Virus record (IMG/VR): IMGVR_UViG_3300003885_000026
Coordinates: 1 to 32,074 of that record
Source of the DNA: a virus
DNA: 32,074 nucleotides
Reading direction: 5' to 3' (one strand)
Part shown: piece by piece, positions 26,172 through 31,572 of the stretch
Layout: each line of letters begins with the position of its first letter
Numbering within the stretch: position 1 is the first letter of the stretch
The notes under the pieces: model-generated
Databases searched by the model: none
The model's input: only the letters and a program-made list of their open reading frames with translations
What the model was told of the DNA's origin: nothing
Position numbers and translations under genes: made by a program

Positions 26172-28022
26172 TTATTTAGCCTTTTTCTTTGTTGCCTTTT
26201 TCTTTGTTGCTTTTTTCTTTGTTGCCTTTTTCTTTGTTACTTTTTTCTTAGTTACTTTTTTCTTTGTCGCTTTTTTCTTTTTCTTATTTTCTGGTAATGA
26301 TGGTTCACCTTCACCTTCATCTTCATCTTTATCTTTATCTTCATCTTCATCTTCATCTTCATCTTCATCTTCAATGTCTTTAGGGGGTTCATTCCCTGAT
26401 TCATCCCCTTCACCTTCACCTTCCTGGTTATTAAGTGGGTTCATTTCTAAAAGCTTCATTCGCATTGCTGTTTCTTTTAGTTTACTTTCAAATAAAGCTA
26501 ATAATTTTTGTTCGGCATCTTCTTTAGTTAGCCCGGAATTATCTCGCATCAATGAATCAACCATTGAGTCTAACATTAAATCACGTCTTTTTTCTATGAT
26601 GTCCAGTTTATCCTTTTCGCCTACAAATTGTGCTGGTTCATTAAATTCTAAATTGGTTTGTATTTCTTCATCTAAAGAACTAAATTCTTCAAATTCTTTA
26701 GCTAATGCTTTTCTATCTGATAAATCATTCAACCATTTTGCCATCACCCTAATGGCCTTTGGTTCTTGTTCCCTATAAACTTCCCTTTGATCTTCAATAT
26801 CTTCAGTGTTTTCTGCACGTCTTATCATTTCTTGAACACCTGAATTTGCACTAGTAGCACTTAATTGCCCTTGTACAGTAGATACTTCAAGATTATTAGT
26901 TGATAAAAGAAGTGCAACATACATTTCAATCATTTTCATATGTGCATCTAATGGTGGGTTAGAACTAGCAAAACCTATACTAGGTGTTTCATCACCATCT
27001 TCAGTTTCAATAAAGATGCCATCACTAGGCCCTATCTTAATATTCTTAGGAATCTTTTTACCGAATAAATAAAAGATACCCATACCCTGAAATTTAGCAA
27101 TGAAATGTAAATCAGTTATTAAAAGATTTAATAATAAAGAACCATCAACTAAATCATCACCACCCACCGCCCAGAAATGGCCGTCTTTATCTTTAGCAAA
27201 ATTAATAAAGGGTAATTCTTCAATTGGGTTTAAGTTATCATCAGGGGATTTTTCAGCAATTATCATGCCCTTACTATTAGTGGTAAAATGATATTTATCC
27301 GTCCACCATATATAATGCTTTTTATTAGCACCATCATCATTAGGTGAATCAGCTATAATTTGATCTTTACCATCACCTTTATTAAAATTTTGTGATGACC
27401 TATTGTGGAAACCAGCTTCATTAGGAGCAGCGTAATTCATTGCTTGCTGGTCTTTAGAAGTGAATTGATTGAATATATAGACCCTAGGGTGTTCAGTGTT
27501 TTCTTCATCTTCAATTACATCATAAGTAAAAGGGGTAAGTGCCGACACTGTTAGTTCTTTTTTATCCCTGTTTTTTCTACTTGATTTAGGGACTATGAAT
27601 AAATCACAATTTTTAAATAGTTCAACATACTTATTAATTTTTTTCATTACAGTGTTGAATTTTAATTTCTCTAAAAGATCATCAACCAGCTTTTGTTGCG
27701 CCTCAATTTCAGATTCACTTTTATCTGTCACTTCCCTTTTGGCACCGTCTTTATAAACCATTGCTTTTTTGTCAATGATCTTTCTAAGAAATGAAATACT
27801 TCCAACACGGTTTAATACATCGGTAACAACATTTGAACCTAATTCATTTTTTATCATTTCTAAAACGTATGGCCGTGATTGATCTTTAAAAACATCATAC
27901 CGCTTTTTCATTTCACGTTTTCTAGCTAGGTTTTCCGGTGCTTCAATTTCACCAATGACTTTAGCTCTGAAGTTAATATCTAATACTTGATCTTCATCAT
28001 TTAGTTTTGTATGCAAGGTCAT
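26172..28022 (-). CDS. Portal protein with acidic tract and lysine-repeat C-terminal tail
   Basis: 616 residues. The body (1-530) matches phage portal proteins in length and in segments such as YVLEMIKNELGSNVVTDVLNRV, 'ELTVSALTPFTYDVIEDEEN', 'PIEELPFINFAKDKDGHFWAVGGDDLVDGSLLLN', 'SATSANSGVQEMIRRAENTEDI' and 'EEIQTNLEFNEPAQF', and it follows the large terminase with an ATGA overlap. The portal is the dodecameric ring for DNA packaging. Residues about 551-573 form an acidic DE run; residues 580-616 are a run of TKKK[AV] repeats like histone H1 tails. These extensions are unusual for portals and might contact DNA, scaffold or host factors. Confidence 0.88.
   Translation of the reverse strand: MTLHTKLNDEDQVLDINFRAKVIGEIEAPENLARKREMKKRYDVFKDQSRPYVLEMIKNELGSNVVTDVLNRVGSISFLRKIIDKKAMVYKDGAKREVTDKSESEIEAQQKLVDDLLEKLKFNTVMKKINKYVELFKNCDLFIVPKSSRKNRDKKELTVSALTPFTYDVIEDEENTEHPRVYIFNQFTSKDQQAMNYAAPNEAGFHNRSSQNFNKGDGKDQIIADSPNDDGANKKHYIWWTDKYHFTTNSKGMIIAEKSPDDNLNPIEELPFINFAKDKDGHFWAVGGDDLVDGSLLLNLLITDLHFIAKFQGMGIFYLFGKKIPKNIKIGPSDGIFIETEDGDETPSIGFASSNPPLDAHMKMIEMYVALLLSTNNLEVSTVQGQLSATSANSGVQEMIRRAENTEDIEDQREVYREQEPKAIRVMAKWLNDLSDRKALAKEFEEFSSLDEEIQTNLEFNEPAQFVGEKDKLDIIEKRRDLMLDSMVDSLMRDNSGLTKEDAEQKLLALFESKLKETAMRMKLLEMNPLNNQEGEGEGDESGNEPPKDIEDEDEDEDEDEDKDKDEDEGEGEPSLPENKKKKKATKKKVTKKKVTKKKATKKKATKKKATKKKAK
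26175..26285 (-). repeat. 15-bp tandem repeats encoding TKKK[AV] units
   Basis: About seven imperfect copies of a 15-bp unit (CCTTTTTCTTTGTTG on the + strand) make the lysine-rich C-terminal tail of the portal protein. Copies differ by single bases that switch Ala and Val codons or are silent. Confidence 0.9.
26304..26372 (-). repeat. Hexanucleotide repeat tract encoding Asp-Glu run in portal
   Basis: TTCATC repeated, with some TTTATC variants, on the + strand encodes alternating Asp and Glu (with two Lys) near the portal C-terminus, just before the lysine tail. Length variation by slippage is likely between relatives. Confidence 0.85.
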
Positions 28023-29413
28023 ATAATTTTCCTTTTTAAGAATCTTTTATCAATTCCAATATTTTGAATTTGTCTAAATATACCATAGGTAGCGGCATTT
28101 GACATGTGTTGCCATTCATTTTTATCATCTTCTATATACTGCCCACCTTTTTTTAATTTAGTCAATCGGAAACCCTTATCGACCATTTCACATGCCGGGT
28201 GAACCACAAAAACTTTACATTCTTTTTTGGCATTGTACATTTGCCCATTTACATAGATATGCCTTTTTCTAATAGGTGGGTTTGATAGCGGTATATCTAT
28301 TTCAAATTGGATTGGTTCATGAGTTTCAGGGTCAATATAATTTTCAAAATGTTTTTTAATAATATCATAATCGGATTTATTGAATCTGGTATCTGAATTA
28401 GCACCACTAGCATCACCGTTGATTACATATTTAAAGCCTGATTTAATAAAGCCCCGTGCCGACCATTCATCTAAAGTGTTTTGTGTATTAGCACCTTGAA
28501 TAGATACTTCAGCAAAAAAGTAAAATTTATTGCCAATGTATTGAAACATACAGCATGACATTGGTTTACCTAATCCAATATTAAAATCATAGGTAAGGTA
28601 AATGTTATAGTTAGGGTCTACCCTATAACTAGAAATTCTTGATTTTTTAGCATCATAAGCATAGTAAACAACTTCAGTTTTTAATTCTAACCATTCGCCA
28701 TAAATCATTCTTCTAGCTTCACGTTCGGTAAAAGTTTCTAGAAGGGTTTCAATATAATCTTTAGGTAAGAAAGGGTTATCAGTTGTTACTGAATAAAAAA
28801 CTTTTCTGTTTGGTTTGGGGTTACCAATGAAATAATCATAAGCTGAATGTGAAGGGGCATCAGGGTTAGTAGCACATATGATAAATTTTTCAGGTATATG
28901 TAAAAGCCTTCCAATACGTGCCTTCATTTCTTTATAAAACCCATCAAATTCTTCACTAGTATTTTCTGTTATTTCTTCAATGATTGCCGCTGAATAATCG
29001 TATGATCTAAATTTCTTATATTTTTTATCACCCCATGTAAGTGCTTCAATCAATGAACCAGTTTTTAAAAACTTTATTTTAGCTGAAGTATAATTGATTT
29101 TATAATCAATACCTTCTTTAAGTTTTTCATCTTGTAAGTGTTCAATGATCTTTGAAAAAATTGTGCCCTTTAGGTCGGGTAATGTTTGACGGCCCATTAA
29201 TACTTTAGCATTTCTAAACATTAAACAATGGGTAACCGCTAGATGTGCCATTAGGATTGATTTAGCTGAACCAACTGAACCAGATAGCATTACTTCTAAA
29301 AGTGATTTGTTATAGTCCCAATCTTTTCTTACTAATTTAATTACATCATACTGGTACGGTACCGCTTTAGGGTCAAATTCAGTAAGTGAAGGGGTTGAAG
29401 TTACTAATTCCAT
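28019..29413 (-). CDS. terL: Terminase large subunit
   Basis: 464 residues. ATPase: Walker A GSVGSAKS (45-52, Lys51), Walker B AAIIEE (142-147) with catalytic Glu, and coupling motif CATNP (180-184). Nuclease (RNase H fold): LTYDFNIG with Asp276, INGDASG with Asp334, and a C-terminal 'NEWQHMSNAATYGIF' containing the last metal-site region. These are the hallmarks of the motor that cuts concatemers and packages DNA through the portal. The ATG overlaps the previous stop by one base, and its own stop overlaps the portal start by 4 nt. Family (Terminase_3/6-like) is not resolvable by eye, so cos versus pac packaging is open. Confidence 0.95.
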   Translation of the reverse strand: MELVTSTPSLTEFDPKAVPYQYDVIKLVRKDWDYNKSLLEVMLSGSVGSAKSILMAHLAVTHCLMFRNAKVLMGRQTLPDLKGTIFSKIIEHLQDEKLKEGIDYKINYTSAKIKFLKTGSLIEALTWGDKKYKKFRSYDYSAAIIEEITENTSEEFDGFYKEMKARIGRLLHIPEKFIICATNPDAPSHSAYDYFIGNPKPNRKVFYSVTTDNPFLPKDYIETLLETFTEREARRMIYGEWLELKTEVVYYAYDAKKSRISSYRVDPNYNIYLTYDFNIGLGKPMSCCMFQYIGNKFYFFAEVSIQGANTQNTLDEWSARGFIKSGFKYVINGDASGANSDTRFNKSDYDIIKKHFENYIDPETHEPIQFEIDIPLSNPPIRKRHIYVNGQMYNAKKECKVFVVHPACEMVDKGFRLTKLKKGGQYIEDDKNEWQHMSNAATYGIFRQIQNIGIDKRFLKRKII

Positions 29414-29739
29414 TATACATCTATGTGACCTTCAAAACTATCGCCGTTAAAATGTTCTTTACTAGTAATTGATTTATCCTTTGCCTTAATTTCTTTTTCT
29501 TTTGTTGCTAGTGCTGCCTTTGCAAATATTTGTGTGAAATCTTTTACTAGGTCTTTTAACCTTTCATCATTTAAATGAATATTTCTAGTTAAAGCACACA
29601 TCTTTATTTCATGGGTAAGATTTTCAAACATCTTGTGGCGTCTAGGGTGTTCTAATAGAAACTTTTTTATTTCATACTTTTGACTGAAAAGAGTATTCAC
29701 ATGATGAATGTAAAAAGTTTCTATCTTATGATTGATCAA
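29413..29739 (-). CDS. Small helical protein between His-rich protein and terminase (108 aa)
   Basis: Start TTG 29739, with AGG 8 nt upstream and only 2 nt after the previous stop; no other start gives a sensible fit. The product is helical and basic in its first half (QKYEIKKFLLEHPRRHKMFENLTHEIKMC), then LNDERLKDLVKDFTQIFAKAALATKEKEIKAKD. It could be a packaging accessory by position. No family recognised. Confidence 0.62.
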   Translation of the reverse strand: MINHKIETFYIHHVNTLFSQKYEIKKFLLEHPRRHKMFENLTHEIKMCALTRNIHLNDERLKDLVKDFTQIFAKAALATKEKEIKAKDKSITSKEHFNGDSFEGHIDV

Positions 29740-29741
29740 AT

Positions 29742-30317
29742 TTACAACCTAGCATAAGCTGATTGAAATTTAGCAGCTTCACTATTAAGCTTCCTTATTT
29801 CAATCTTATCTGATTTTATATAAGTAACTTCATGAACGTGATTATCACCAGCACCTTCAGCGGCACCAGAATTGAATGGTGTGTTTTCATATCTTCTTTT
29901 TTTAGGATTCCATACCCTTTTAAGTGGGCGTGAACATGTGGCACTAAGGTTACCTTTCTTATCAACCTTGACTTCCATTTCATGAAAATGGCCGCCCGTT
30001 GCTGAAGATTTTTCTAACCGCTTACCTGAAGAATCATGTGAATGGTAAAAATGGCAATGTTCGGCCGGCATCCAAATAGGGTTATTAATATCAATTGAAA
30101 TATTTTTTAAAAATTTGGCCGCTTGTAACTTAAATAAATCATGATCAATAGTAACATCACCCTTGTACGTTCTATTGATTGTGTCTGATGTTGCATCAAT
30201 ACCATCATTGGGTTTATGTACAGTTGATTCTTTAGGTTGATATGGTTTAGGTTCTTCATTAAACTCACCATTACCACCCATATTCACTTGCTGATCTTTC
30301 TTTTTGTTAGTGTTCAT
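29742..30317 (-). CDS. His-rich protein with three HxH clusters, unknown function
   Basis: 191 residues. The first 45 are disordered, rich in Lys, Asn, Pro. The core has HCHFYHSH (His87, 89, 92, 94), GGHFHE (His110, 112) and NHVHE (His160, 162), three spaced HxH clusters that strongly suggest metal binding. The rest is beta-rich (HEMEVKVDKKGNLSATCSRPLKRVWNPKKRRYENT). GAGGAGTAAAAAATT gives a good start at ATG 30317; the GAGGAG comes from the end of the methyltransferase gene. It sits between the small and large terminase genes. A cupin or virion-associated role is possible, but no family is recognised. Confidence 0.68.
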   Translation of the reverse strand: MNTNKKKDQQVNMGGNGEFNEEPKPYQPKESTVHKPNDGIDATSDTINRTYKGDVTIDHDLFKLQAAKFLKNISIDINNPIWMPAEHCHFYHSHDSSGKRLEKSSATGGHFHEMEVKVDKKGNLSATCSRPLKRVWNPKKRRYENTPFNSGAAEGAGDNHVHEVTYIKSDKIEIRKLNSEAAKFQSAYARL

Positions 30318-30323
30318 AATTTT

Positions 30324-30342
30324 TTACTCCTCTAAATTATAT
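30324..30342. repeat. 19-bp direct repeat, copy 1 (end of methyltransferase gene)
   Basis: TTACTCCTCTAAATTATAT, identical to 31041-31059. On the minus strand it encodes the last residues YNLEE-stop of the methyltransferase and provides the GAGGAG ribosome binding site for the His-rich protein gene. Confidence 0.95.
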
Positions 30343-31037
30343 ATTCTGTTTTTTGCTACATTAAAATACTCTTTATCTTTTTCAATACCTATAAAATTTC
30401 TATTTAAATTTTTACAAGCAACACCTGTACTGCCACTACCCATTGTAAAATCTAAAACAGTTTCACCTTCTAATGTGTAAGTTTTAATTAGGTATTCAAG
30501 TAATGGTATAGGTTTTTGTGTGGGGTGAGTGGGTTTTCTGGTACGGTTAAACTCAATTGTGGTTAAAGGGTATCTTTCACCTTTATTAATTGTTTCCGTT
30601 GGTTTGTATTTTCTATTAGTCCCCTTCTGTTTATTTGGTTTATTTGTTGTTTTATATGGTTTTCCTTTTCTCATTTGGGGGTAGTAATTGCATTTTTTAT
30701 AAAAGATACTTACTAATTCTGTATCTCTTAAAGGCATTTTCTTTGCATTTAAAAATCCTAAGCCTTTTTCCTTCTTCCAAATCCAATCATATTTAAACAT
30801 TTCAATATTACTAATTCTTAAAGCACTACTGAAAGGTTCACTTCCAAATAAACAAATGGCACCATTATCTTTTACAATTCTTTTCAATTGTGCCCACATA
30901 GGTTCAAAAGGGATTACATTATCCCACTTACAAGCGGTAGTGCCATAAGGTGGGTCAGTTAAACATAGGTCAATAGAATTATCTGAAATAAAGTCATTCA
31001 TAATTTCTAAACAATCACCTTGGTATAAATAAATCAA
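30324..31037 (-). CDS. DNA (adenine-N6 or cytosine-N4) methyltransferase, beta class
   Basis: 237 residues. Motif IV DPPYG (28-32) near the N-terminus and SAM-binding motif I FTMGSGSTG (197-205) near the C-terminus give the permuted order of beta-class enzymes, with HPTQKP (171-176, motif X region) between. The N-terminal 'LYQGDCLEIMND' is also typical. It transfers a methyl group to an exocyclic amine in DNA. In phages such solitary enzymes usually protect DNA from host restriction. The start is TTG 31037, 6 nt after GAGGAG; an ATG at 31041 is out of frame. No companion restriction gene is seen. It is flanked by an exact 19-bp direct repeat, suggesting a mobile cassette. Confidence 0.93.
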   Translation of the reverse strand: MIYLYQGDCLEIMNDFISDNSIDLCLTDPPYGTTACKWDNVIPFEPMWAQLKRIVKDNGAICLFGSEPFSSALRISNIEMFKYDWIWKKEKGLGFLNAKKMPLRDTELVSIFYKKCNYYPQMRKGKPYKTTNKPNKQKGTNRKYKPTETINKGERYPLTTIEFNRTRKPTHPTQKPIPLLEYLIKTYTLEGETVLDFTMGSGSTGVACKNLNRNFIGIEKDKEYFNVAKNRIYNLEE

Positions 31038-31040
31038 TCA

Positions 31041-31059
31041 TTACTCCTCTAAATTATAT
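31041..31059. repeat. 19-bp direct repeat, copy 2 (end of small terminase gene)
   Basis: Identical to 30324-30342. On the minus strand it encodes the last residues of the small terminase (YNLEE-stop) and the GAGGAG that starts the methyltransferase. The spacing between copies, 717 bp, equals the methyltransferase gene plus 3 nt. Confidence 0.95.
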
Positions 31060-31421
31060 TTTAGCCTTATTACATTATTTTCATTGCCTTCAGGTAATTC
31101 AGGTTCAGGGTTGTCACACCACTTGAACCTATTTTTCATATTAAATGCCCAGCCTGAAGGACTAGCTGATATTTTACCCGTGGCCAGTGCCATGCCAATA
31201 CCTTCCCACCAAAGCATATTTTTCTCGATGCCCACCCTTTTGGCCTCTAACCATTTTGGGAAAATCTTTTCCCATAAATAAAGTGTTGATCGGTGGGTTT
31301 CAATAACCGCTGCAAATGTTTCATAAGAAAATCCTTTTGACATATGTTCTAAGAGGTCATCACAATATTCTTCTAAAAAATTTGGTACATTCCCATCAAG
31401 GGTTGTTAATTGAAAATTCAT
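31041..31421 (-). CDS. terS: Terminase small subunit
   Basis: 126 residues from ATG 31421 (in-frame GTG and TTG at 31427 and 31430 are alternatives; no clear Shine-Dalgarno site). 'KGFSYETFAAVIETHRSTLYLWEKIFPKWLEAKRVGIEKN' is a helix-turn-helix region as in phage small terminases that recognise packaging DNA, followed by 'WWEGIGMALATGKISASPSGWAFNMKNRFKW', a pattern common in this family. It is the first gene of the late arm, and the rest of packaging follows. It forms an oligomer that brings DNA to the large subunit. Confidence 0.83.
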   Translation of the reverse strand: MNFQLTTLDGNVPNFLEEYCDDLLEHMSKGFSYETFAAVIETHRSTLYLWEKIFPKWLEAKRVGIEKNMLWWEGIGMALATGKISASPSGWAFNMKNRFKWCDNPEPELPEGNENNVIRLKYNLEE

Positions 31422-31572
31422 TGGCACCAATCATGCTGGGTTGATAATTTTATGGTAAGCGTATTTTACATTGAAAAGCAATATTGAAATAAGTGTCTTA
31501 TAAAACGTCAAATTAATTTTTAGTAAAATTTTCTTAATAGTGCCTTTTATTGTTATACAATTTTATGCCATA

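Follow-up and report, generated by a model that had tools for sequence, protein, structure and literature searches.

In the accepted view of phage mosaicism, new genes are inserted at gene boundaries by illegitimate recombination, and morons proper carry their own promoter and terminator. As in morons and mosaic evolution, the locus described here, in a viral DNA of 32,074 nucleotides (the window, meaning the whole stretch analysed), has one gene placed between two operon genes with neither disturbed; unlike a moron, the insert appears to finish in duplicated sequence from the end of the gene upstream, which provides its final codons and a ribosome-binding site for the gene that follows, and no moron-type promoter or terminator was detected at it.

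Among the known genes of phage metagenomic islands, methyltransferases are the commonest, in some cases as whole-gene deletions, and terminase genes are likewise frequent there (passages of PMC7468147). The orphan methyltransferases of those passages resemble the present gene in being solitary genes gained or lost whole in conserved phage genomes; that study, however, used read mapping, and the same passages report no copied neighbour tail at a junction. T4-type PeSL cassettes (Arbiol 2010 and Comeau 2014, as cited in PMC4503421) also have short boundary repeats tied to gene shuffling but, as described there, a PeSL is a promoter-stem-loop, whereas the repeat in the window is coding. A PeSL cassette was rejected because the repeat copies hold no promoter-like or terminator-like site and no stem-loop; a TATAAT (-10-like) lies within the repeat, yet the promoter scan passes no promoter there. 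The SAS of cluster K mycobacteriophages (PMC3203893) is likewise a short repeat with a ribosome-binding site ahead of start codons; it precedes many genes, whereas the 19-mer of the window encodes two protein ends and occurs just twice even when three mismatches are allowed, so that SAS/ESAS repeats were also discarded. Phage methyltransferases are already known as flexible genes. Against this background of flexible genes and insertion at gene boundaries, an end copied from the neighbouring gene is a variant for which no description was found in the open-licence literature searched.

An exact 19-bp repeat at two gene ends

The features of the locus are listed below; related loci are denoted by L numbers.

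31041-31430, minus strand: small terminase (terS), 129 aa, with conserved C-terminal tail VIRLKYNLEE; PHROG 309
31041-31059: repeat copy 1, the native terS end, which carries GAGGAG for the methyltransferase; terS relatives share the tail type
30324-31037, minus strand: inserted gene, predicted beta-class amino DNA methyltransferase, 237 aa, TTG start, DPPYG and DFTMGSG intact
30339-30347, minus strand: likely right junction, where the R-I-Y codons (AGA ATA TAT) would meet the terS tail in common A/T (about ATATA), judging from the L089 end
30324-30342: repeat copy 2, probable acquired terS-tail sequence, which encodes the C-terminal residues of the methyltransferase and provides the His-rich gene with GAGGAG
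29742-30317, minus strand: His-rich protein, 191 aa, the gene after the insert; in L171 and L172 it comes straight after terS
29413-29739, minus strand: 108-aa protein of the same module, with homologues in L171 (33%) and L119 (31%)
28019-29413, minus strand: large terminase (terL), 464 aa, PF04466 E=4.7e-12; used for the tree

The sequence TTACTCCTCTAAATTATAT is present as exact copies at 30324-30342 and 31041-31059, in agreement with the initial annotation. The two genes that bear it have minus-strand orientation; read in that direction, each copy is ATATAATTTAGAGGAGTAA, i.e. ..YNLEE-stop; the same ending had been claimed for the small terminase (31430-31041) and the methyltransferase (31037-30324), and this is what the copies encode. 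Each was also said to supply GAGGAG to the next gene, and this motif indeed lies 6 nt upstream of the TTG start of the methyltransferase and 9 nt upstream of the ATG of the His-rich gene.

It is clear that the repeat is real and not a product of chance, which is ruled out by three counts. Allowing up to three mismatches, TTACTCCTCTAAATTATAT has 2 matches in the whole window where 0.04 are expected; among stop-anchored exact runs for all 1,326 gene-end pairs in the window a run of 19 nt is seen here only, the next being 10 and 7; and the 10 nt that remain beside GAGGAG (ATATAATTTA) occur in the repeat's codon phase at 2 of 10,122 codon positions, which are the repeat copies (the probability of a random match of these 10 nt alone is ~7e-6). 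GAGGAG itself has two sites in 32,074 bp, both within the copies, and stretching the repeat to 22 bp brings in one mismatch. Homology of the two proteins as the source of their common end is ruled out by their differing families, which bears out the earlier view that it does not reflect protein descent.

terS matches the terminase small subunit of PHROG 309 (E=6.8e-9), and its closest solved structure is Sf6 gp1 (3hef; sequence profile E=1.4e-5, Foldseek E=0.045 with probability 1.00); with this profile, an HTH and helical core and a terL nearby it has the characters of an Sf6 gp1-like small terminase. The inserted gene matches PF01555 (N6_N4_Mtase; E=8.6e-36) and PHROG 67, has a homologue 77% identical in L089, and its nearest solved chains are 5hfj/5hek. 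TDPPYG near residues 27-32 stands ahead of the FxGxG-like DFTMGSG at 196-202, both invariant or nearly so among homologues, and the product is a predicted beta-class amino methyltransferase with intact motifs. Its suggested anti-restriction role would follow general knowledge of phage methyltransferases (passages of PMC7468147). The His-rich protein has paired HxH motifs (HCH, HFH, HVH) and no Pfam or PHROGs match; as a single query it found no match in viral_contigs or phages, and its alignment as query found relatives in 12 viral loci, mostly adjoining terminase genes. The terL search of genome_contigs gave no match.

Origin of the shared tail

The comparison of sequences indicates that a tail of the YNLEE type belongs to terS by descent. 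Across 11 relatives neither L123 nor Y125 varies, and ends of the same kind on terS relatives include LKLAYNLEDDE (L009), INLSYNPDE (L001) and IKLNYKLKEEE (L172). The motif [LIVMF]x[LIVMF]xY is C-terminal in terS, both in the window (residues 119-129, 31041-31073, predicted to be disordered) and in loci of its terL class (L171-L248). Within the same terS family it is found in 15/16 proteins with a window-like terL versus 2/55 with another terL (Fisher 2e-12, with kinship ignored, so that P is a guide only). terS bodies of other kinds beside the window's terL class often have the same motif; the terS of L170 shares 71% identity with the L107 protein, yet L170 has a different terL and its terS has another tail. 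In lambda and P22, terL is bound by the terS C-terminal region (PMC9611059). Given the shared ends of relatives, the link to one terL class and this precedent, the tail is probably a peptide that docks terL. YNLEE ends on related small terminases lacking a repeat had been named beforehand as an argument against an insertion scar; ends of this type do occur on terS relatives, so that the argument applies to terS, though not to the methyltransferase.

The methyltransferase family looks quite different. Most members stop within ~7 residues past YFxIAxxRI, with very variable last residues, and the YNLEE ending is seen in 0 of ~80 homologues; the ending is therefore foreign to the methyltransferase and looks to have been borrowed from terS. 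The L089 homologue ends RIYGN (GAAAGAATTTATGGTAACTAA). In the models of the window's enzyme, of which 1/5 is confident, the last predicted helix stops at residue 233, and the final residues would fall outside the fold. Since one homologue (L128) ends RIKNLL-stop, the methyltransferase could itself have had some of the RI.NL stretch, in which case fewer than 19 bp were copied. A copied tail is absent from all eight known phages that have a related methyltransferase at another place. Several other phage methyltransferases, including L126 and L151, have QLTMF-/QATLF-like ends that resemble sliding-clamp binding motifs, a resemblance only.

Occupied and empty sites in relatives

In the terL tree the window groups with L172 (98/88) and L171 (98/87), whose terL proteins are 50% and 55% identical to that of the window, the latter being the nearest. 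In both, terS abuts the His-rich gene, followed by the third gene and terL; the methyltransferase is absent and there is one tail. L196 has the same gene order. The L172 tail runs ...AAAGAGGAAGAG TAA ATG, with a purine-rich ribosome-binding site ahead of the His-rich start. This arrangement is most simply read as an insertion that took place in the lineage of the window, and the direction of change would be a gain. The relatives foreseen by the initial annotation, lacking the gene and with one tail, were thus found, but not its single copy of the same 19-mer: the exact search of viral_contigs gave 0 matches, so no single-copy phage was found and the event itself is uncaught.

The cleanest occupied and empty sites come from two loci that are close to each other. 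In L119 (3001-3747) a methyltransferase occupies the terS/terL overlap, and in L260 (at 2427) the site is empty; their terS and terL are 85% and 97% identical, a case of related methyltransferases being present or absent at this junction in close relatives, in support of the initial annotation. The joins (ATGAT and TGAA) have short common bases on each side, the target is not duplicated, and the L119 enzyme ends in EHRH, read off the terL start in another frame. When tested as an island gene, the window's methyltransferase is absent from L171/L172, at 55% and 50% terL identity, and the gene present or absent in L119/L260 is a 56% homologue, not the window's own. In L200, L222 and L119 the methyltransferase adjoins terS without tail duplication or flanking repeats; duplication of the tail is therefore not a regular outcome.

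It did, however, occur a second time, independently. L107 has the order terS, methyltransferase with a terS tail, second methyltransferase with a native end, terL; terS ends NEAKEGLRLAYSINGKQ-stop, the next gene RINEAKEGLKLAYSINGKQ-stop and the one after RINEA-stop, with the join at AAYGAAGC. Of the 17 terS-tail residues on the methyltransferase (L107:1866-3735), 16 are identical; the copies differ by 11 nt and one conservative amino-acid change where ~7 changes would be neutral (P ~5e-6), which suggests either that the peptide is under constraint or that a different terS allele was the donor. In its sister L225, terS lies immediately before terL, without a methyltransferase. In a comparison of 6,243 gene-end pairs no more than three genes apart, drawn from 248 loci, unrelated genes seldom share an end to this degree (L107, L199), a further case, L083, coming from a separate scan; other long shared ends are mostly those of paralogous methyltransferases or of low complexity.

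In L083 (1248-1619 and 2099-2473; EPPTPART) and L199 (1120-1560 and 1542-1925; ECGETE) the stop and the ribosome-binding region lie within the repeat. Tandem methyltransferases with near-identical ends are present in L100 (2117-4930), where the stop of one gene overlaps the start of the next, and in L118/L120 (3133-4513).

Routes to the repeat

We consider it likely that the methyltransferase entered an operon of terS, His-rich gene, third gene and terL by short-homology recombination and obtained its last codons from the recipient DNA. The insertion point would be exactly behind the terS stop codon, with the left join just past that stop and the right join in the few A/T bases common to the methyltransferase R-I-Y codons and the terS tail. 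Insertion with these joins would therefore close the methyltransferase with a second copy of the final 19 bp of terS. The terS protein, with its probable terL-docking tail, would be unaltered; GAGGAG would be retained before the His-rich gene, and the other copy would drive the methyltransferase. Considered with L119/L260 and L107, this suggests that such methyltransferases enter junctions precisely and are completed by codons of the recipient, a process of which the 19-bp repeat would be one outcome. The initial annotation had proposed a scar left by duplication of a short target; the scar stands as the best explanation, while transposon-like duplication does not, there being no transposase or terminal inverted repeats. 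A transposon or IS was rejected on the same grounds, the insert being the methyltransferase only with no inverted repeats at its ends, as was homing endonuclease or intron mobility, because only PF01555 passes the cut-off within the insert.

The L107 arrangement could also point to a different history for the window, in which unequal exchange, involving the terS tail and the end of a methyltransferase, gave a tailed and a native-end methyltransferase in tandem and one was later deleted, leaving the terS-tailed copy before the His-rich gene. L107 is the exact intermediate form, its join at an 8-nt common stretch, and L100 and L118/L120 hold tandem enzymes with near-identical ends; the window, however, has one methyltransferase and its His-rich start follows copy 2, so that a second, equally precise event is needed, and this history seems unlikely. 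Selection for a ribosome-binding site over the stop (GAGGAGTAA encodes EE-stop) in an AT-rich background, with the rest accidental, is a poorer explanation still and very unlikely. The three neighbouring genes of L021 that end GEE-stop share 12-13 nt around the ribosome-binding site, which serves as a benchmark for convergence of this kind, and RIKNLL at the end of the L128 methyltransferase shows a partly similar end, but GAGGAG is not otherwise used in the genome, the extra 10 nt carry the small chance given above, and the shared tail of L107 is much longer than a ribosome-binding site.

A maintained device, in which recombination between the repeats toggles an anti-restriction gene and both states persist in populations, is a further reading; the initial annotation had named a design that allows such gain and loss. 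On the sequence, recombination of the exact copies would leave terS whole and the His-rich gene still preceded by a ribosome-binding site. Short direct repeats are known to undergo RecA-independent slippage, which falls with distance (PMC8047081), and phage methyltransferases are present or absent in natural populations (passages of PMC7468147). Exact loss by such slippage is possible, and the deletion form would join terS ...GAGGAGTAA straight to AAAATTATGAAC. However, no deletion form was seen, a match of 19 bp over 717 bp makes a poor substrate for recombination, and a single insertion scar, with no selection for removal, would look identical. Moreover, the gene is present or absent in L119/L260 without repeats, and L200 and L222 also have a methyltransferase here without them; the evidence therefore does not support a design by which the gene is gained and lost, and we regard the device as highly improbable.

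It is conceivable, but decidedly unlikely, that the terS-type tail is functional on the L107 methyltransferase, as a terS mimic recruiting the enzyme to the packaging motor, the YNLEE of the window being a reduced form. A docking role for the window's methyltransferase tail is disfavoured, as this tail is without the hydrophobic-x-hydrophobic-x part of the motif. If the mimic were real, some phages would bring a methyltransferase to the packaging motor by this means.

The preferred reading, insertion by short homology, would mean that phages can add a methyltransferase to a tightly packed essential operon with neither neighbour broken; recipient DNA would provide the last codons and stop of the new gene as well as the ribosome-binding site of the gene after it. 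Neighbouring unrelated genes with an identical tail may then serve as a signature of recent gene insertions. Furthermore, the conserved C-terminal terS peptide tied to one terL class offers a candidate for the terS-terL contact that can be put to the test.
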